IMG/VR virus record: IMGVR_UViG_3300032236_000645 | Location: 1 to 57,188 of that record | Source of the DNA: a virus | DNA length: 57,188 nt | Direction: 5' to 3' (one strand) | Shown here: one piece after another, positions 12,792-28,307 of the stretch | Numbering within the stretch: position 1 is the first letter of the stretch | How the letters are laid out: each line of letters begins with the position of its first letter | Notes under the pieces: generated by a model | The model's database searches: none | Seen by the model: only the letters and a program-made list of their open reading frames with translations | Told to the model about the DNA's origin: nothing | Program-made: the position numbers and the translations under genes

Positions 12792-13195
12792 TGATAAACA
12801 TAATTATTACAGGCACAAAGTCGGAGAAGTTAAAAACTATTCTGACTGAAGCCTGTATGTTTTATTTGAAGCAACTTGGATTTCGTAAACGAAAAAGAGT
12901 CTTGGAGATTTTCATAAACATAGGACACTTTGATGAATATGGTCTATGTGAATTTAATGATGACTTTTATTGGCCAGAAATTGCCATACAAATCAATAGA
13001 GATTATGGCCATGAAGAAATGTTAAAAACATTGGCACATGAAATAGTCCATGCTAAACAGTATTTAAGAAAAGAATTAAAACAAATTGGCAAACAGTTAT
13101 ATTGGATGGGTAAACCATCCGATAATGAAGAATGGGAAACTGAAGCTTACATCCGTGAAGAACGATTATATGGTGAATATTTAAAATGGAAATAA
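12788..13195 (+). CDS. SprT-like zinc metallopeptidase
   Basis: 135 aa, overlapping the gp41 stop by 4 bp. The zinc motif HEIVH is at residues 84-88, followed by AKQY; EEWETEAY near 118 supplies a candidate third ligand (Glu). SprT/Spartan-type proteases cleave DNA-protein crosslinks, and the position directly behind the helicase fits a role at replication forks. Substrate is not known, and it may be catalytically active or structural. The size is typical of a minimal SprT domain without the C-terminal zinc ribbon. Confidence 0.78.
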   Translation: MMINIIITGTKSEKLKTILTEACMFYLKQLGFRKRKRVLEIFINIGHFDEYGLCEFNDDFYWPEIAIQINRDYGHEEMLKTLAHEIVHAKQYLRKELKQIGKQLYWMGKPSDNEEWETEAYIREERLYGEYLKWK

Positions 13196-19753: not shown

Positions 19754-20923
19754 ATGATAAACATTAAATATTTCCTAAAAGAAGCAGCCGAAGAAGGCGA
19801 GAAACTCAAGCACATTGAGCATCTTGAGGACCATCCAATTAATGATGGTGCTAAAGGATTCGAACACGCTGTTGGTGCTTTAGAAAAAGTAAAACACCAT
19901 ATCCAACAAAAGAAACAAAGTTCAGACTTGACTATGAAACACGATGGTTCTCCATCTATTGTTTACGGTCATCATCCAGAAAATGGTAAGTTCTTTGTTG
20001 CTTCTAAGTCTGCTTTCAACAAAACACCTAAGATTAATTACACAGATAAAGATATCGAAAAGAACCACGGTCATGCACCTGGTCTTGTTGAAAAGTTAAA
20101 AGCAGCATTACACCATATTCCTAAAATTGCACCTAAGAAAGGTGTATTTCAAGGTGACATGTTGTTCTCAGATAAAGATGTCAAGAATGAAAACGGCAAA
20201 GTTAAATTTAAACCTAACACTATTACATATTCCGCTAAAGAAGGTAGTGAAGAAGGTAAGAAGATTGCTAAAGCTAAAGTAGGTTTATACACACATACTG
20301 AATATCGTGGTAAAGATGCAACTGCCATGAACGCTCATTTTGATCCAGATTTATCTAAATTTAAACATCATCCAGATGTCTATCACAGAGAACCTGGCCA
20401 TGATACAAGTAAAACTCCTTTCACACCAGAAGAGAAAGCTAATTACGAACATCATTTAAAAGCGGCTGAAGAAATCCATGCTAAACATGGAGACCAAATT
20501 TATAGTCCTTTAGACAAGGTTCGTGACCATGTTAAGACTTATATCAATACTACTGTAAGGACTGGTGAGAAACCATCACCTGAAGGTTTACAACACCATC
20601 TAACACAACATTACGGTAAGATGATTGATAAACTCAAAACAGACAAATCTAAAAATGCTAAAGTTGAAGAATTAAAAGACAAGTTATCTCATGTCGAAGT
20701 TAACAAAGAACACTTCAACAACTTGTTTAAATTACATCACCATCTACAACAAGCTAAAGACCAATTAGTTCATGTGTTGGCTAAAAACACCGGTGGTTTA
20801 GAACATTCTGTTGGTGGTCAAAAAGTTAAACCAGAAGGTTTCGTTGTTAACCATGAAGGTAAACCAACCAAACTAAATGATAGAGCTGAATTCAATAGAC
20901 TTAATTTCTTGGCGAGAAAATAA
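19754..20923 (+). CDS. ligase-like nucleotidyltransferase with capsid-targeting-like N-terminus
   Basis: 389 aa, His- and Lys-rich. Motif I of covalent nucleotidyltransferases (K-x-D-G) is visible as K62-H-D-G-S, close to the T4 RNA ligase 1 form KEDGS. A motif III-like VFQGDMLF lies near 131-138, and motif IV/V-like EGFVV and TKL lie near 362-373. It resembles, as I recall, DUF6267 proteins of cyanophages. The N-terminus INIKYFLKE has the F7-L8-x-E10 pattern of the T4 internal-protein targeting peptide (MKTYQEFIAE). It shares one base (TAATG) with the HAD gene. RNA or DNA end-joining is inferred; the full motif set should be checked structurally. Confidence 0.7.
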   Translation: MINIKYFLKEAAEEGEKLKHIEHLEDHPINDGAKGFEHAVGALEKVKHHIQQKKQSSDLTMKHDGSPSIVYGHHPENGKFFVASKSAFNKTPKINYTDKDIEKNHGHAPGLVEKLKAALHHIPKIAPKKGVFQGDMLFSDKDVKNENGKVKFKPNTITYSAKEGSEEGKKIAKAKVGLYTHTEYRGKDATAMNAHFDPDLSKFKHHPDVYHREPGHDTSKTPFTPEEKANYEHHLKAAEEIHAKHGDQIYSPLDKVRDHVKTYINTTVRTGEKPSPEGLQHHLTQHYGKMIDKLKTDKSKNAKVEELKDKLSHVEVNKEHFNNLFKLHHHLQQAKDQLVHVLAKNTGGLEHSVGGQKVKPEGFVVNHEGKPTKLNDRAEFNRLNFLARK

Positions 20924-21558
20924 TGAAAACATTTTCAACTTTTTTAACAGAAGACACTAAAGAGCCAGCAACTGGCGGATTACACATGTTTGATGTGGAT
21001 GATACATTATTTCATACAACTGCTAAAATTCATGTTAAAGACAAATCGGGTAAAACTGTTCAGACTTTAGATAATAAAGAATTCAATACACATACTTTAA
21101 AGCCTGGTCATCATTATGATTTCCATGAATTTAGAAATGCTGAGAAATTTCATAGTGAATCTAAACCTATTCACAAGATGATTAATAAAATTAAAGCTAT
21201 TCATCAAAATGTTAAGAAGAAACCAGGCAGTAAAGTTATCCTAAATACTGCTAGAGCTGACTTCGATGATAAGAATAAGTTCTTGGATAAGTTCAAACAA
21301 CATGGTATTGATATTGATAATATCCATGTAGAACGTGCCGGTAATATTCCTGGCGATGAACATCCAGCTGAGAAGAAAGCGCAAGTTGTGAGAAATCATC
21401 TTGCTAGACAAAACTATAAGCATGTTAGTTTATATGATGATAGTAAGAGTAATTTAAATAGGTTGTTGAAAATGAAACAAGAGTATCCTCATGTTAAGTT
21501 TCACGCATATCATGTTCAACCAAATGGGACAGCAAAGAAATATAAAGATGGAAAATAA
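20923..21558 (+). CDS. HAD-superfamily phosphatase with capsid-targeting-like N-terminus
   Basis: 211 aa. The HAD motif I is D24-V-D26-D-T28, motif II is ILNTAR near 106-111, and motif IV is LYDDSKSNL near 169. These are the marks of a phosphohydrolase such as the 3'-phosphatase domain of T4 polynucleotide kinase. The leading MKTFSTFLTE matches the T4 internal-protein targeting sequence at M1-K2-T3, F7 and E10, with LxE as a gp21-type cleavage site. It overlaps the ligase-like gene by one base and the adenylyltransferase/kinase gene by 11 bp. Substrate is unproven. Confidence 0.82.
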   Translation: MKTFSTFLTEDTKEPATGGLHMFDVDDTLFHTTAKIHVKDKSGKTVQTLDNKEFNTHTLKPGHHYDFHEFRNAEKFHSESKPIHKMINKIKAIHQNVKKKPGSKVILNTARADFDDKNKFLDKFKQHGIDIDNIHVERAGNIPGDEHPAEKKAQVVRNHLARQNYKHVSLYDDSKSNLNRLLKMKQEYPHVKFHAYHVQPNGTAKKYKDGK

Positions 21559-23425
21559 ATTCAAATCATTCTTGGAACTTATGGAAGAAGAAACCAAATC
21601 AGTAGCGGTTTTATTCGGTCGTATGAACCCACCAACAAAGGGTCACGAGGAGAATGTTAACGGCTTAAAATCCTTGGCAGCTAAACACAATGCTGACCAT
21701 GTGGTCATTGCTTCACACTCACATGACCCTAAAAAGAATCCTCTTTCTCCAGAGGACAAACTTAAACATTTGAAACGTGCTTTCCCAGCGACCAATGTTA
21801 AAGTTGCTTCTAAAGAACAACCAACAATTCTACACCATGCTGCCGCTTTACACAATCAAGGATATACACACTTACATATTGTTGGTGGTGGTGACCGAGC
21901 TGATGAATACAAACGACTATTACATCAGTATAACGGCAAAGAAGGTAAACACGGCCTTTACAATTTCAAAAAGATTACTGTACATTCCACTGGTGAAAGA
22001 AAAGCTGGTGTTTCTGGTACAGATATGCGTAATCATGTAAAAAACAATAATTACACCGAATTCAAAAAGAACTTACCATCAAATATTCAAAAGAATGATA
22101 AACATTCACGTGAGTTGTTCCATGACACTAGAAAAGGTATGGGCATTACCGAAAGTACAGAACGTGGCATGTTCAAGGCATTATTCTTAGTTGGTGGTCC
22201 AGGTTCTGGAAAAGATGTTATTATCCATGAAGCTGTAGCTGAAAAGAATGCAGTAGAAATCAATGTCAATAAGGTTTTTGATTTCCTAATGGACAAAAAG
22301 AAATTATCAGAAGATACTAAAGATAATCAATTAAACGCTATTAAACGCCGTTCAGCTTTGATTATTAATGGTGCTTCAGATGATAGAGCCAAGATTAATT
22401 CAATCAAAGAAGAATTGAACGAACTTGGATATACTTCAATGATGGTGTTTGTTAATACTACTAATGAAGTATCTCAAAATAGAAATACGCAACACTCCAG
22501 AGTTATCTCAGAGCAAATCAGAAATGAAAAATGGTTACGCTCACAAGAGAACATAGACCACTTCTATGATTCTTTCGATTTCTTCTTGGAATTTGATAAT
22601 TCTATTAATTTGCAAAGCTCTGACCTTTTAATCAGAGAAGCAAAACAGAATGAAATAAGTGATATCTGTAATGAAATATCCTATTTCTTTAAGTCGAAAG
22701 CAATCAATGAAAATGCTAGTAATTGGTTGAATTCACATGGTAAATTTGATAAGGATGATATAAATGAAAACTATTCTAAACTGGTTAAACAACATGATGG
22801 CCAAGATTACACCCATCTCAAAAAGAAAACCGATAACCGAGGATACTCAAAGTTGTTGCAAAAGCGCAACCTCGTTGCCAAACACATGCTCAAAGACGGC
22901 AACGCCTACAAAGACAACTTCCTCAGAAAATCAGGTAAAATCGATGACGTCCGTGACGGCGACATCCAAAGAAACACCGGTTACTCCAATTGGGCAGCCG
23001 AAGAAAAAGAAGAAGTATTATCACAACAACAAGAACAGAGTCAACCAACACTCAAAATCAACCCAGCCCCAAAAGTCCGTAACTTCGACAAAGACAAAGA
23101 GTCCGCACAAACCAAACGTAAAGCAGGGGTAAGTCTATTACCTGGTAAAGTTCAAAACGGTGTTGGAGTTGGTGATACATTCGATAATAGAACTTCGGGT
23201 TCTGTATATCCAATGAGTGGTCTAGGCAACTCTACATATCGTGAGAGTTTTGATAAGTTTAGAAGTAAATTAAAAGCTGAATCTATTGATGAACCTGGCA
23301 CAACTGAAATGGGTACATTTGGTGGAATGGCTAACGGTACTAATAAAGAGCCAATGGTAACTCCTTCTGATAACGTGAAATCACGTGCAGAAAGTAAAAC
23401 AAGCAAAAAGAAAATCAATAAATAA
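21548..23425 (+). CDS. nucleotidylyltransferase plus P-loop kinase fusion
   Basis: 625 aa from ATG 21548 (the upstream in-frame extension lies inside the HAD gene). Domain 1 (about 17-190) is a nucleotidylyltransferase: GRMNPPTKGH at 24-33 ((H/T)xGH motif) and SGTDMR near 157 (ISxTxxR-like). Family members include NMN adenylyltransferase and phosphopantetheine adenylyltransferase. Domain 2 (about 205-380) is a P-loop kinase with GGPGSGKD near 214. The rest is Lys/Gln/Asn-rich. The N-terminus FKSFLELMEEE resembles the targeting peptide with a one-residue offset. Codons for about 435-520 (22855-23110) strongly prefer C-ending forms, unlike the flanks. The substrates could be NMN for domain 1 and a 5'-OH end for domain 2; neither is shown. 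Confidence 0.8.
   Translation: MENKFKSFLELMEEETKSVAVLFGRMNPPTKGHEENVNGLKSLAAKHNADHVVIASHSHDPKKNPLSPEDKLKHLKRAFPATNVKVASKEQPTILHHAAALHNQGYTHLHIVGGGDRADEYKRLLHQYNGKEGKHGLYNFKKITVHSTGERKAGVSGTDMRNHVKNNNYTEFKKNLPSNIQKNDKHSRELFHDTRKGMGITESTERGMFKALFLVGGPGSGKDVIIHEAVAEKNAVEINVNKVFDFLMDKKKLSEDTKDNQLNAIKRRSALIINGASDDRAKINSIKEELNELGYTSMMVFVNTTNEVSQNRNTQHSRVISEQIRNEKWLRSQENIDHFYDSFDFFLEFDNSINLQSSDLLIREAKQNEISDICNEISYFFKSKAINENASNWLNSHGKFDKDDINENYSKLVKQHDGQDYTHLKKKTDNRGYSKLLQKRNLVAKHMLKDGNAYKDNFLRKSGKIDDVRDGDIQRNTGYSNWAAEEKEEVLSQQQEQSQPTLKINPAPKVRNFDKDKESAQTKRKAGVSLLPGKVQNGVGVGDTFDNRTSGSVYPMSGLGNSTYRESFDKFRSKLKAESIDEPGTTEMGTFGGMANGTNKEPMVTPSDNVKSRAESKTSKKKINK
23417..23424 (+). promoter_or_regulatory. 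T4-type late promoter element
   Basis: AATAAATA (seven of eight matches), overlapping the stop of the adenylyltransferase/kinase gene, 38 bp before the ATG at 23462. Confidence 0.45.
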
Positions 23426-23461
23426 GCAATCATGTTCACAGAGAACTAACAGGAGATTAAG

Positions 23462-25543
23462 ATGTTTCAAAAATTTGGTAAAGAAATTCCCCAATCACTA
23501 GTAGATGCCGTTTCGGGTATCATGTATGAAGCTAAGGCCGATGAACCTGCCGCACCAGATGCAGATGCTATTGCTCGCCGTAAACGTCTACAAGCAATCA
23601 AAGATAAACAAGAAGATGATGCTGCGGAACGTGGTGCTGGCGAAAAGAAATCTTCTGGTGTTCGTCAAGTAGCTGGTAAAGCTTACGGTGGCGCTAAACA
23701 AAAAGATGACGATTTAGAAGAATCTAAAAAACATATGGATGAAGCAGATGTTGAAGAATCTGGACTCCGTATGGCTGCTCATGCTGCTCATAAAGCTGGT
23801 CAAAAGAACTTTGAATTTCAAGGTAAAACATATCCGGTTAAAGTTACAAAAGAAGATAAATCTTGTGTAACTAAACCTGAAGTAAAAAAGATTGCTGATA
23901 AAGAAGTTGGCAAACACGAAAAGAAAATGCACCATGAAGAAAAGCAATTAGATGAAAAGGCAGTAAGTATTGCTCAACAAAAATTCATGGGTATGGTTAA
24001 TGCCGTTAAAAAAGGCAAAATGAAAGCTCCAAGTAAAGAAGTAGGAAAAGCTGCTCATAGTATGACAAAGAAAGCTGCTCACGATTTTGCTGCTACTAAA
24101 CACAAAGGTTTACCTCAACATAAAGAAGAAGTTGAACAAGTAGTTGAATACAAAGGTCAACCTAAAGATGTTCCTTTTGATGCTGATAAACCACATGGCA
24201 AAATTGCTACTGCTGGTAAAAAAGGTTATGGTGTTTCAGCTGCTAAACATCTAGCTCGCCAAGGATTGAGAAAATTCTTAAAAAAAGAAACTCTGATGGG
24301 TAAAGCAGGTTGCACATCAGAGGAAGCCGACCTCGAAGAATCTCGTGGTCATAAAATCCTTGCAACAAAATTAAAACAATTGTCAATGCAAAGTCACGGT
24401 ATGGCACCAGAGTTATCTGTTAGTCCTCAAGATATCAAAGACAAATTAAAAGATGCAGCTAGTATCAATCAAGTTGAAATTGTTAAGCAAAAAGATTCTT
24501 CAATTAAAAAAGAGGCGGCTGGTAATCCTGGTCCTGTGAGAAAACATGTTCCATCGCCAATGGAAAAACCAAGTAAAGATGATATGGCGGCCTGGCATGC
24601 TAAACAAAAAGAGAAACATGCTTACAAAAAAGAAGAAGCATTAAGTGAAGAATTTCATCCAAATGTTCACGCTGAATTGAAAAAACATGCTGGTAAAATC
24701 GGCGCTGTTATGCACAATACAAAAGATAATGCTATTGCTGTTATTGTACATCATACTGATGACAAAGGTCTTTCTGGTCCTCACCATGTACATTTTTTCC
24801 ATAATGATAAAAAAGTACACTCAACTGTTCATCCAACATTTGGCGATGCTGAATCTCATGCTGTAGATACCATCACTTCTAAAAAAGGTTTGAAACATTT
24901 AGGTAAAATGCACACCTTGATGGAAGAGCAAATTGATGAAGGTTCTAGTACTGAATTTCAAGACAAACTACGTAGCAGCGTGCCAAAAGGTAAAGGTCTT
25001 AAAAATACTGAGTTCCAAAATATTGTAGCTCGCAAGAATAAAAAAGATCCACACTGTCCTGGTTGCGGATTACACGCAAGTGATGAAGCTAAAGGTGGCA
25101 AGCACGGTAAGTTCTGTAAGCAGGCAAATGAAGAAGTAGAACAAATTGATGAATTATCTAAAGATACATTAACATCATATAAAAATAAAGCTACTTCAGA
25201 TAAAGAAGGACATGATGATGTTAAATATGATGGCGACCAATCTTTCACTAATCGAATGAAAGCAAATTGGAAAGGTTCTTTACGCAAAAAAGGCATTGCT
25301 AATGCTAATAAGAAATTAGGTGAAGAAAATCAGATTGATGAAACTGCTACATTAGACCAATACATTAAGTCTATGGGCTATGACCCAGAGCATATGGAAA
25401 AGAACAAGAAAGTTATGTTCTCAAAAACTAATGCTTTCAAAACTTGGGCTTCTACAAGACAAGAAGGTCTTTATGATGCTGGCCAAAAAGGTACACAAGA
25501 CATCGATACTCACATGTCACCAGGCGCAACTGCTAGAGGATAA
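23462..25543 (+). CDS. large Lys/Glu/His-rich repeat protein, likely internal virion protein
   Basis: 693 aa, highly charged and low in complexity, with many Lys, Glu, His and Ala. Recurrent pieces such as EEVEQVVE, EEVEQIDELSKDTL and (E)EADxEES are spaced through it. EEVEQIDELSK-type repeats are common in large head-associated proteins of aquatic T4-like phages. Near residues 530-545 CPGCGLHASDEAKGGKHGKFC forms a possible zinc knuckle. The last 45 residues (DQYIKSMGYDPEHMEKN...KT..F) are similar to the start of the next protein. AGGAG precedes the ATG. A role as internal head or core protein is inferred from composition and context. Confidence 0.72.
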   Translation: MFQKFGKEIPQSLVDAVSGIMYEAKADEPAAPDADAIARRKRLQAIKDKQEDDAAERGAGEKKSSGVRQVAGKAYGGAKQKDDDLEESKKHMDEADVEESGLRMAAHAAHKAGQKNFEFQGKTYPVKVTKEDKSCVTKPEVKKIADKEVGKHEKKMHHEEKQLDEKAVSIAQQKFMGMVNAVKKGKMKAPSKEVGKAAHSMTKKAAHDFAATKHKGLPQHKEEVEQVVEYKGQPKDVPFDADKPHGKIATAGKKGYGVSAAKHLARQGLRKFLKKETLMGKAGCTSEEADLEESRGHKILATKLKQLSMQSHGMAPELSVSPQDIKDKLKDAASINQVEIVKQKDSSIKKEAAGNPGPVRKHVPSPMEKPSKDDMAAWHAKQKEKHAYKKEEALSEEFHPNVHAELKKHAGKIGAVMHNTKDNAIAVIVHHTDDKGLSGPHHVHFFHNDKKVHSTVHPTFGDAESHAVDTITSKKGLKHLGKMHTLMEEQIDEGSSTEFQDKLRSSVPKGKGLKNTEFQNIVARKNKKDPHCPGCGLHASDEAKGGKHGKFCKQANEEVEQIDELSKDTLTSYKNKATSDKEGHDDVKYDGDQSFTNRMKANWKGSLRKKGIANANKKLGEENQIDETATLDQYIKSMGYDPEHMEKNKKVMFSKTNAFKTWASTRQEGLYDAGQKGTQDIDTHMSPGATARG

Positions 25544-25544
25544 T

Positions 25545-26063
25545 ATGGATTACATTACAGAATTTGCTAAAGAAATTGTAGACCGTTATCTGAAAGCTAA
25601 AGGTTGGGATCCTAGACATGTGGATAGAAATAGACGCATGGCTATGACCAAGACCAAAGAGTTTCAGTTGTATGCTCAACGCATGGGTGAAGCGATGGAA
25701 TTTCCACAAGGTGATTTTGATGCTAAAGGCACCTCAGCTAAAGTTGTTGGTGAAAAGAATTTATCTAAATCAGCACAATTAGTTAAGTCAATCTATAAGA
25801 AACATAGAATTAAAGAAGAACTCTATGACCATGAAAAAGATGACAAAGACGGAACTACATACGGCAAGAAACCTAAACTATCAGCTAATAAACAAGAAAC
25901 AGACCAACAAGGTCAAAGTGATAGTAAGACCCAAGCAGCAGCTGTATTAAGTGGTGGTACAACATTAACTGGTCAAAAGAGAGATGTTGTTGAAATTGAT
26001 CCAGTGTTGAAAAAGAGTAAGCCAGGTTCGCCTAATGGTGAAGTAGGCGATACAAAACAATAA
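25545..26063 (+). CDS. small basic protein sharing a module with its upstream neighbour
   Basis: 172 aa from ATG 25545, the first in-frame ATG after the upstream stop; a longer frame overlaps the previous gene and is not credible. Residues about 10-45 (IVDRYLKAKGWDPRHVDRN, then KT-x-x-F) match the C-terminal module of the 693-aa protein. The N-terminus DYITEFAKE also shows F7 and E10 of the targeting-like motif. The second half is polar, Gln/Lys-rich and probably disordered. The late-type AATAAATA overlaps its stop. Confidence 0.72.
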   Translation: MDYITEFAKEIVDRYLKAKGWDPRHVDRNRRMAMTKTKEFQLYAQRMGEAMEFPQGDFDAKGTSAKVVGEKNLSKSAQLVKSIYKKHRIKEELYDHEKDDKDGTTYGKKPKLSANKQETDQQGQSDSKTQAAAVLSGGTTLTGQKRDVVEIDPVLKKSKPGSPNGEVGDTKQ

Positions 26064-26066
26064 ATA
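26059..26066 (+). promoter_or_regulatory. T4-type late promoter element
   Basis: AATAAATA overlapping the preceding stop, 37 bp before the ATG of the Ig-like virion protein at 26103. AAGGAG lies between. Confidence 0.45.
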
Positions 26067-26102
26067 GCAATATAATTCCGAAAGATTAAGGAGAAATACA
26101 AA

Positions 26103-26804
26103 ATGGCTTCAAACCAAGGTAATTACGATAACAGTGCTAATGTCCCATTGTGGTCAGCGACATCTGTTTTCAAGGCACCAACAGCAGTTAATGCTGCCGC
26201 TTTATACGAAGATACAACACCTAATGACCAAATTGCTGGTGTAACAATAGGTGTATTTGCCGTCGATGATGCTGAAAAGATTGTTGAAGGTAATTCTGGT
26301 TCACACGCTGGATGGGTACTAAGAAGAGTTGGTTCTGGTGGTCGTGCTGGTCGTGTACAAGAAGAAACTCTAGCAGTTGTTGCTAACTTCCGTTCAGATA
26401 ATAATGCAGATGATGCAGTATATGCAGACGCTTCTATCATTATCACTCAACCAGTATCATTACGCACAGTTAATTCTAATACATCAGCTGCTAATGTGGT
26501 AACATTCTCTGTTGCTGGTACAAAAGTTTCTCCTGCAAATGCAGTAGTGACATACCAATGGCAAGTTAATAATAACGCAGGTGGTACATGGGTTAACATC
26601 GATGCTGGTACTGATGTATCAACTGGTCAACCAGGTGGTTCACATAAAACAGGCGCTACAACAGATACATTCTCAATTGCTCCAACAGATACAACAGCAA
26701 ACAATTATGTATTCCGTGCCGCAATTACTGCTACTAACCCAAATATTACAAACTCAGCTTTAACTGTTTACTCATCAAACGGCAGAATCTATATTCCTGC
26801 TTAA
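26103..26804 (+). CDS. virion structural protein with Ig-like domain
   Basis: 233 aa. The N-terminal half includes SGSHAGWVLRRVGSGGRAGR near 62-81, a segment I associate with a conserved virion protein of aquatic T4-like phages. The C-terminal half (about 115-230) alternates T/V/N/A strands with YQWQVNNNAGGTWVNI, typical of bacterial Ig-like domains found in Hoc-like decoration or fibre proteins. It has no Cys and a late element plus strong AAGGAG upstream. A strong terminator directly downstream fits a highly expressed structural gene. Exact location in the virion is unknown. Confidence 0.78.
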   Translation: MASNQGNYDNSANVPLWSATSVFKAPTAVNAAALYEDTTPNDQIAGVTIGVFAVDDAEKIVEGNSGSHAGWVLRRVGSGGRAGRVQEETLAVVANFRSDNNADDAVYADASIIITQPVSLRTVNSNTSAANVVTFSVAGTKVSPANAVVTYQWQVNNNAGGTWVNIDAGTDVSTGQPGGSHKTGATTDTFSIAPTDTTANNYVFRAAITATNPNITNSALTVYSSNGRIYIPA

Positions 26805-26822
26805 TGTATGACAACTAAATAA

Positions 26823-26846
26823 GGGGGACTCCGGTCCCTCTTTTTT
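26823..26846 (+). terminator. rho-independent terminator
   Basis: Perfect stem GGGAC (26825-26829) / GTCCC (26834-26838) with a TCCG tetraloop (UNCG type), extended by a G-U and a G-C pair. Six T follow at 26841-26846. It ends the Ig-like virion gene. A weak late-like CTAAATA lies just before it. Confidence 0.93.
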
Positions 26847-26864
26847 GGCTATAAGAAAAATAAT

Positions 26865-27251
26865 ATGTTTGATGACTTAAATGATGACAACTTTTTGATT
26901 TACGCTATGAAGTCATATACTTCTCCGCATTGTATAATGTCGGAATTTGAAGGTGACTTAAAACGAACAAAATACTTAAAAAAGTTATTTCGTAGATATA
27001 AAATAAGTAATGACCTTAAAGAGAGGTTAATTCTCAATCATCTTATTTTATTATATAATGTATTTGAAGTGGAATCGGCAACAAGAATTTTATTTTATAA
27101 GATTGATGATAGGGATTATGATATCCTTAAAACCTTTTTATTATACTTAAACTATATGCCTAATCGAATTATTGGCATCAAAGGTAAAAACATAGAATCA
27201 TCAGATATTCTAATAAATATGGATATCGCAGAGATACTGAGGAAATTATGA
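26865..27251 (+). CDS. conserved T4-like phage protein of unknown function
   Basis: 128 aa, strongly helical. Starts with FDDLNDDNFLIYAMKSYTSP and continues with DLKRTKYLKKLFRRY, then hydrophobic helices containing LILNHLILLYNVFEVE. I recognise the pattern as a protein conserved among aquatic T4-like phages, but no activity is known to me. There is no clear SD before its ATG. It overlaps the next gene by 4 bp (ATGA), and the strong terminator separates it from the Ig-like virion gene. Confidence 0.78.
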   Translation: MFDDLNDDNFLIYAMKSYTSPHCIMSEFEGDLKRTKYLKKLFRRYKISNDLKERLILNHLILLYNVFEVESATRILFYKIDDRDYDILKTFLLYLNYMPNRIIGIKGKNIESSDILINMDIAEILRKL

Positions 27252-27871
27252 AAACATTCAAAGCCCATTTAGAAGAAGCCTGTTGGAAAGGTTACAAAGC
27301 CATTGGAGTAAAAGACAAAGGTGGTCGTAAAGTTCCAAATTGTGTTCCGGTCTCAAAAGAAGAAGTTGAACTGGATGAGACAAAAGACCATACTGAATAC
27401 GAAGACCCTCATATGGCAGTAAATCAATTAAGAAGTATCATTCACAATGCTCAAGAAATGCTAGATTTAATTGGTGATGATAGTGACTTACCTGAATGGA
27501 TTGAATCTAAGATTACATTAGCTGAAGATTATCTAATGACATCTTCAAACTATATGCGTAGCGAAATGAAAGAAAGCTACGAACACTTAGATGAAAAATC
27601 TCCAGCTTGGCAACGTAAAGCCGGTAAGAATCCAGAAGGCGGCTTGAATAAAAAAGGTGTTGCTTCTTATCGTAGAGAACATCCAGGTTCTAAATTAAAA
27701 ACAGCTGTCACAACAAAACCATCTAAGTTGGATCCAGATAGTAAATCTGCTAAACGTAGAAAATCATTTTGCGCTCGTATGAGTGGCATGAAGAAGAAGT
27801 TAACTTCATCAAAAACTGCTAGTGATCCTGATTCACGTATAAACAAATCTTTAAGAAAATGGAATTGTTAA
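27248..27871 (+). CDS. DUF6321-like protein with capsid-targeting-like N-terminus
   Basis: 207 aa. MKTFKAHLEEA aligns with the T4 internal-protein targeting peptide MKTYQEFIAEA at M1-K2-T3, aromatic 4, E10 and A11. Next comes the CWKGYKAIGVKDKGG..VPNCVP cassette common in aquatic T4-like phages. The C-terminal half (SPAWQRKAGKNPEGGLNKKG, then KRRKSFCARMSGMKKKL and a final RKWNC) is the DUF6321-type basic domain. Its high Lys/Arg content suggests nucleic-acid binding. It overlaps the upstream gene and is one base from the next. Confidence 0.78.
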   Translation: MKTFKAHLEEACWKGYKAIGVKDKGGRKVPNCVPVSKEEVELDETKDHTEYEDPHMAVNQLRSIIHNAQEMLDLIGDDSDLPEWIESKITLAEDYLMTSSNYMRSEMKESYEHLDEKSPAWQRKAGKNPEGGLNKKGVASYRREHPGSKLKTAVTTKPSKLDPDSKSAKRRKSFCARMSGMKKKLTSSKTASDPDSRINKSLRKWNC

Positions 27872-27872
27872 T

Positions 27873-28307
27873 ATGATATCGTTCAAATCATTTTTACTAG
27901 AACAACCTACACATCCGGAATCTAAACCTACACGTAAACGTAGCCATGATATTTCTAAGCACGTTAAGAGTTTGAAACCAGTTGGTTCTATTACAACTGA
28001 AATGGATAAATCACAAGAACCGCCTGGCCGTGACGACCCTTATGATTACAATAAAGGTAAATGGCACAAAGGCAAAGTATTATCAAAAGATAAAACAACA
28101 AGTCTTGCTACCGATATAATGAAAAAAGTTCTCAATGGACCTAAAAAGAAATCAATCAAAGAAGATGGTATGGGAGCAGGTAGTGCTGGGCCAACTAATG
28201 TAACTGGTCCACAATCTGGTACAGACCCAATCAGCGCTACGGCTGTTCATCCTAAAAAGAAAAAGAAATACCTAATGGGTATAAGACGTAACCCACCTAA
28301 AATGTAA
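27873..28307 (+). CDS. small basic protein with capsid-targeting-like N-terminus
   Basis: 144 aa. MISFKSFLLEQ carries F4, F7, L8 and E10 of the targeting-like motif. The body is polar and basic (many Lys, Pro, Thr, Ser). The C-terminal part AGSAGPTNVTGPQSGTDPIS followed by KKKKKYLM resembles tails of other aquatic T4-like phage proteins. Probably a packaged, DNA-binding internal protein; this is inferred from composition and neighbours. Confidence 0.7.
   Translation: MISFKSFLLEQPTHPESKPTRKRSHDISKHVKSLKPVGSITTEMDKSQEPPGRDDPYDYNKGKWHKGKVLSKDKTTSLATDIMKKVLNGPKKKSIKEDGMGAGSAGPTNVTGPQSGTDPISATAVHPKKKKKYLMGIRRNPPKM

Follow-up and report, generated by a model that had tools for sequence, protein, structure and literature searches.

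Why should a series of enzyme genes, lying between the helicase and primase genes of a T4-like virus, begin with a ten-residue N-terminus resembling the one that directs T4 internal proteins into the head? The question is raised by a 57,188-base virus record (the window, by which we mean the whole stretch analysed) from an aquatic T4-like phage related to Kyanoviridae. Its genes include those for DNA polymerase, UvsX, a DnaB-like helicase, primase and ribonucleotide reductase, together with others of T4 type. Portal, major capsid and gp21 genes were not recognised among the window genes; a PF03420 search of the fragment gave no match, nor did the control of the same search, and BLAST of the window DNA directly against phage records produced no match. 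Packaging directed by a capsid-targeting sequence (CTS) is a known feature of T4, and T4-like phages have already been suggested to use it for a variety of proteins (PMC9026906).

Helicase gene 41 (11376) lies on one side of the block of interest and primase gene 61 (31025) on the other. The order helicase - X - DUF6267 - nucleotidyltransferase - basic proteins - head protein - DUF7207 - primase recurs, whole or for the most part, in HTVC008M, P-RSM6, Melnitz and S-SZBM1. A sequence-only reading of this DNA had assigned T4-like capsid-targeting N-termini to six proteins of the block, and the open reading frames it named are all in place. The genes discussed below are the following (a slash marks the junction at the end of the tag):

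19754..20923, plus strand: DUF6267 protein, 389 aa, Pfam PF19782 (E 9e-101), tag MINIKYFLKE/A, 18.2 bits
20923..21558, plus strand: HAD-superfamily phosphatase-like protein, 211 aa, tag MKTFSTFLTE/D, 23.2 bits
21548..23425, plus strand: fusion of a NadD-like nucleotidyltransferase and a polynucleotide-kinase-like P-loop domain, 625 aa, degenerate tag MENKFKSFLELMEEE
23462..25543, plus strand: basic protein, 693 aa, possible core protein, without an N-terminal tag
25545..26063, plus strand: basic protein, 172 aa, whose N-terminus belongs to a conserved domain that the preceding protein also has
26103..26804, plus strand: member of head-protein family PHROG 613
27248..27871, plus strand: DUF6321 protein, 207 aa, basic, Pfam PF19846, tag MKTFKAHLEE/A, 12.3 bits
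27873..28307, plus strand: 61.1-like protein, 144 aa, pI 10, tag MISFKSFLLE/Q, 20.2 bits

The tag was scored with a weight matrix trained on 35 distinct decamers from the N-termini of DUF6267 and HAD homologues. These came from metagenomic viral contigs, and neither the window nor T4 contributed a sequence. Four of the 96 called window genes, at 19754, 20923, 27248 and 27873, score 12–23 bits and the next-best gene scores -2.0, while composition-preserving shuffling of N-termini leads to an expectation of 0.05 window genes at 8 bits or more. The T4-like decamers proposed for these four proteins are thereby borne out, with columns 4, 7, 8 and 10 conserved, and the check suggested at the time, whether unrelated genes of the phage show the pattern as often, did not refute them. 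Since the proteins at 19754 and 20923 are themselves members of the two training families, homology accounts for part of their scores; those at 27248 and 27873 lie outside these families and their scores are independent of them. The consensus here is MKSFxxFL[KT]E, and deviations from an aromatic residue at positions 4 and 7 occur at 19754 (I4) and 27248 (H7). The homologues of control families (UvsX, helicase, primase, HtrL, endolysin and DUF7207) carry no tag.

The conserved positions are those that matter in T4. Mutational work on T4 IPIII assigned targeting to residues 4 and 7 and processing to residues 8 and 10 (PMC9026906), and exactly these columns are conserved in the homologues, with entropies of 0.89, 1.02, 0.25 and 0.0 bits at positions 4, 7, 8 and 10 compared with 2.0–2.8 at the variable positions 2, 3, 5, 6 and 9. 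Between the decamer and the conserved domain the homologues have a gapped linker of varying length, and the decamer pattern is kept. When the metagenome-trained matrix was applied to T4, IPIII, IPII and IPI ranked third to fifth among 272 called genes with about 2.5 bits; these scores are low owing to Y4 in IPII and IPIII and to the lack of L8 and E10 in IPI. The likeness to the CTS of IPI–IPIII extends over the ten residues themselves (MKT[YF].EFIAE), the conserved positions, the L/I-x-E cut site and the basic mature protein; the mature window cargo, with a pI of 9.2–10.1, is basic like the T4 internal proteins. In contrast to IPI–IPIII, the mature parts in the window are unrelated, larger and mostly enzyme-like, and the genes of the carriers are grouped in the interval from gene 41 to gene 61, not next to the ip loci. 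A PHROGs search matched none of the window proteins to internal-head-protein families, and the claim is thus one of shared targeting and not of membership among the internal proteins.

Two of the remaining assignments needed revision. The fusion protein at 21548 had been read as carrying the tag with a one-residue shift. The pattern fits only at a shift of four, since a four-residue N-terminal extension precedes it, and what then emerges is plausible and degenerate (F8, L11, M12, E14). As homologues of this protein start with MKSFLELIEE, and members of the same nucleotidyltransferase family elsewhere start with MKTFNKFLTEA or MKNFSSFLTEA, a degenerate tag on it is likely. The protein at 25545 (MDYITEFAKE), which had also been counted as a carrier, was dropped: in its homologues E10 varies and conservation continues across the presumed cleavage site, MDQLDEFAKD, MEQINEYSKE and MEQLQEFAKE all running unbroken into VVDRYIKSMGY. 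A similar stretch lies internally in the 693-aa protein encoded upstream, which again identifies a conserved domain and not a tag. The relatives of the DUF6321 protein at 27248 begin with MKTFKSHLTES and MKTFKQFVESAAWQRKEG, and the association of the DUF6321 tag with a T4-like context is weak (p 0.016).

The untagged 693-aa protein (23462–25543) contains several [LIV]xE sites (EEKQLDE, EEQIDE, ENQIDE). Its repeated E[EQ]xIDE, LDE and LEES sequences are like those of a polyprotein for multiple prohead-protease cuts, and its C-terminal stretch resembles the protein at 25545. The homologue of the window head protein (26103–26804) in S-SZBM1, S-SZBM1_136, was found in virions though its gene is far from the structural block.

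The sequence-only reading had also recognised in LxE at positions 8–10 the cleavage pattern of the gp21 prohead protease, and the same recognition core indeed closes the propeptide of the major capsid protein gp23. The junctions read FGSFLTE/AEIGG in T4, AFLSE/AAPT in Melnitz, AFLGE/IANV in HTVC008M and GLLTE/APT in S-CREM2, with a less similar QQLNE/TAV in the relative G041; the cut is experimentally known for T4 and predicted from sequence for the other four. The start of T4 gp24, MAKINELLRE/S, has the same shape as the tag. In G041 a single contig encodes gp21 (PF03420, E 1e-32), gp23 and a DUF6267 protein starting with MLSFKTFLTE, and the PF03420 family was found directly among the proteins of G041, S-CREM2 and T4.

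That T4-type capsid-targeting N-termini sit on enzymes, as had been suggested, is supported by the published virion proteomes of relatives (PMC10665884, PMC9146016). Among S-CREM2 genes, using the virion proteins of Table 3 of PMC10665884, the core occurs in the first 30 aa of 6 of 48 virion proteins and of 1 of 194 others (Fisher p 2.8e-4). This value comes from a regular expression that was picked once the data had been seen; two other expressions gave 0.004–0.006, and the sliding matrix gave 0.03 at 8 bits and 0.10 at 10 bits. The core-bearing virion proteins include all four non-lysis enzymes of the proteome: a SAM hydrolase (MKDFDSFLEE), a cytidylyltransferase (MKNFSSFLTE), an APH/ChoK-like kinase ((V)KRFDAFLTE, read as MKRFDAFLTE from the start at 12846 in the published table) and a Cas9-like nuclease (LRFASFMAE, with RFASFMAE/AA at residues 18–25). 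The authors of that study stated that carry-over of abundant proteins could not be excluded (PMC10665884). The last of these virion enzymes (L177:7704-10313, minus strand), annotated as a CRISPR-Cas9 nuclease, has no Pfam match, and S-CRM01 g128 has a similar N-terminus.

Other cyanophages add to these examples. The S-CRM01 kinase, which is reported to occur in virions, starts with MISFDQFLSE, and its gene is inside the DUF6267-nucleotidyltransferase block beside genes whose products begin with MKLFNQFFKE and MKKLDQFLTE. The virion cytidylyltransferase of S-SZBM1 starts with MRFRQFIIEA; the fixed-position matrix missed it, the tag being one residue short, and the sliding test recovered it. The cyanophage core family T4-GC190 was found in S-SM1 virions (PMC3037559). 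Its tags read MKKFSTFISE in S-ShM2, MKSFSQFLTE in P-SSM2 and MKRYTNFLSE in S-CREM1, and the P-RSM6 homologue has MITFHVFITE. The untagged DUF6267 protein of S-SZBM1 was undetected in the proteome of that phage, as was S-SZBM1_191, though tagged (MKSFKSFLSES). These cyanophage cytidylyltransferases (T4-GC190), kinases and SAM hydrolase resemble the window carriers in being tagged and in belonging to the same module or to the family of the window nucleotidyltransferase; they differ in having been reported as virion proteins of uncertain status. In the literature searched, none of these proteins was described as bearing a targeting sequence, and no paper linked cyanophages with capsid targeting apart from one review mentioning both. 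The putative enzyme cargo is unusual, and the proteomes of relatives lend it independent support.

Taken with the T4 work, these observations give us high confidence that the decamers serve as capsid-targeting sequences in the manner of T4. The residues at positions 4 (F) and 7 (F/Y) would bind the prohead core during assembly, so that the protein becomes enclosed; gp21 would cut after L-x-E at residue 10, at the same core as in the gp23 junction; and the mature basic protein freed within the head would be ejected with the DNA. The virion proteomics belongs to relatives and the window virus is known as a 57-kb fragment without structural genes, and for this virus we infer packaging, cleavage and injection. 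T4 Alt ADP-ribosyltransferase, likened here by description, sets a precedent as a head-enclosed enzyme that is processed and injected (PMC9026906), although the enzyme types in the window differ from it.

Three other explanations of the decamers were weighed. They could be an assembly or scaffold-binding tag, neither cleaved nor injected, on proteins that only help to build the head; T4 IPIII does affect head morphogenesis (PMC9026906), and several tagged proteins are without a recognisable enzyme domain. The processing residues E10 and L8 are nevertheless the most conserved columns, and a SAM hydrolase, kinases, a nucleotidyltransferase and an RNA-ligase-like fold have no plausible structural role, which makes this explanation improbable. 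That the tag marks some other shared partner, such as the replisome or the membrane, is brought to mind by the location of the module in a neighbourhood of replication genes, bounded by genes 41 (helicase) and 61 (primase). We consider it highly improbable, as the core of the tag is that of the gp23 junction, and the tagged genes of S-CREM2 are scattered over several places of the genome and yet have their virion location in common.

MKxF starts are common among AT-rich phage genes, and some short control ORFs do match the pattern, so chance or a composition bias at start codons (MK.F-like phage N-termini) had to be set against the counts. With four window genes observed where a twentieth of one is expected, every untagged window gene at least 14 bits lower, and the tag conserved across homologues while the linker changes in length, such an origin is scarcely credible. 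Targeting to the capsid remains our preferred reading of the decamers.

How widely the tag is spread was surveyed by scanning viral contigs for the back-translated decamer preceded by a ribosome-binding site. The scan returned 71 distinct ORFs, many of them in coherent families, including DUF6267 proteins, nucleotidyltransferases, PNK/zeta-like kinases, DUF6321 proteins and a HiPIP-like protein. DUF6267 itself occurs in 469 phage records. The DUF6267 proteins of S-SZBM1, P-RSM6 and S-CRM01 are without a tag, so packaging of that cargo is not universal, and in HTVC008M, which has the same module, neither the matrix nor the regular expressions found a significant tag.

One family that the scan returned, of 185 aa and beginning MKSFxEFLTESKKTYPFKIGVAGELPE (L240:12322-12879 and about 11 similar loci), matches virion structural and internal head proteins in PHROG. 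DUF6267 and the nucleotidyltransferase occur as tagged fusions at L152:3275-5539 (MNFKSFLVES), L163:6347-8458 (MFSFKNFLIES) and L149:3642-5405 (MNFREFLSEA), in agreement with PHROG 455. The Melnitz phage encodes a RimK-like ATP-grasp ligase starting with MTQKFSQFITEE (L003:82-1131), another candidate packaged enzyme.

The last gene listed above points to T4 in a different way. T4 61.1 (NC_000866 18966-19130), which adjoins primase gene 61, aligns without gaps with T4 gp23 from the protease junction on (FKEFIKE/DMVAGDSGGNPENISIGTTSGAVV compared with FGSFLTE/AEIGGDHGYNATNIAAGQTSGAVT). The S-CREM2 virion protein gp160 (L004:28342-29235) mimics the arm of its own gp23 with a score of 95 against a shuffled maximum of 39, and a like gene of P-RSM6 (L002:19394-19771) reaches a gp23-arm score of 107. 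In T4, S-CREM2 and P-RSM6 the best match of the mimic is the phage's own gp23 arm, and a lysine-rich stretch then follows. The C-terminal part of the window protein at 27873 resembles the mature gp23 N-arms of relatives (48–52) and is followed by KKKKK. The genes of this protein, T4 61.1 and S-CREM2 gp160 lie at equivalent places upstream of the primase gene, and such arm mimicry ties the window block to that of T4. The window protein thus shares with the T4 gp23 junction and gp61.1 the F..FLxE core, combining a tag with arm mimicry; it differs from gp61.1 in length (144 aa compared with 54 aa) and in having the arm mimic near its C-terminus. One guess is that the mimic anchors cargo or DNA at the inner capsid surface.

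What would the enzymes do once delivered? The protein at 19754 consists of the tag, a disordered linker and an RNA-ligase-like adenylyltransferase domain into which a long helical segment is inserted, and its structural model has a mean pLDDT of 88, with residues 1–20 low. VIA-align rows 1–31 for this model are all nucleic-acid ligases, the best being the Naegleria RNA ligase NgrRnl (Z 9.7; 187 residues aligned, rmsd 3.7), with the RNA editing ligase (Z 8.7), T4 Rnl2 (Z 8.1), Trl1 (Z 7.2) and T4 Rnl1 (Z 7.0) among the others. Foldseek alone gave a weak signal (best E 0.71, a tRNA ligase), hhalign against T4 Rnl2 gave no match, and searches of PDB sequences returned no match with the DUF6267 profile and nothing useful with the HAD and nucleotidyltransferase-kinase profiles. 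Across 24 rows, K62xDG65, G134D135, E361G362 and K373 are invariant, and the features of the ligase superfamily, namely a nucleotidyltransferase fold, motif I KxDG, motif IV EG and motif V K, are present. The modelled structure thus indicates that DUF6267 probably has an RNA-ligase-like fold.

The neighbouring proteins may act on nucleic-acid ends as well. The protein at 20923 has the invariant HAD catalytic motifs DxDDT, TAR, K and DDS..N and a weak match to PHROG 415 polynucleotide kinase (E 2e-4). The fusion protein at 21548 matches PHROG 3041 and 395 cytidyltransferase and Pfam zeta toxin/AAA_33; in Foldseek its kinase domain is closest to the bacterial Pnkp kinase 4mde (E 9e-6, TMt 0.59), with other P-loop kinases close behind, and its nucleotidyltransferase domain matches NadD 3mla (E 4e-4). 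Since a ligase-like fold, HAD motifs and a PNK-like kinase are encoded adjacently, a set for healing and sealing ends is suggested. The same three elements lie together in known RNA end-repair sets (Pnkp with Rnl; T4 Pnkp with Rnl1/Rnl2), which differ from the window in that the latter has separate genes, the helical insertion in the ligase domain, an extra nucleotidyltransferase and the tags. We tentatively propose that the cargo could be an injected nucleic-acid end-repair set of RNA-ligase-like DUF6267, HAD phosphatase, PNK-like kinase and nucleotidyltransferase, at somewhat less than even odds. Such a cargo would immediately counter defences that cut RNA or DNA, or act on nicks in the entering genome.

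A serious alternative concerns the function of the cargo and leaves its targeting aside. The nucleotidyltransferase and kinase might work like NadR (NMNAT plus nicotinamide riboside kinase) and restore NAD early in infection. Defences that deplete NAD are known, the nucleotidyltransferase domain does match NadD, and cyanophage authors name the protein NMNAT or NadR-like. The kinase domain is nevertheless nearest to the bacterial Pnkp polynucleotide kinase, and the RNA-ligase-like fold of the module and the HAD protein with its weak polynucleotide-kinase match fit end repair better, so that a NAD-restoring role is possible but rather unlikely.

Cyanophage virion proteomes repeatedly list enzymes, and their authors could not settle whether these were true cargo or contamination. 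A sequence tag of known mechanism separates the two, and it predicts the cargo of viruses known only from metagenomes; DUF6267 gains in this way a probable fold and role. The tagged enzymes of the window, together with the tagged enzymes in purified particles of relatives, make it probable that very common T4-like viruses inject ready-made enzymes with their DNA. Whether marine and freshwater T4-like phages share a general delivery code, in which a ten-residue copy of the gp23 junction loads exchangeable enzymes, the end-repair set included, seems to us evenly balanced. If they do, the injected proteome of abundant viruses would be readable from sequence.
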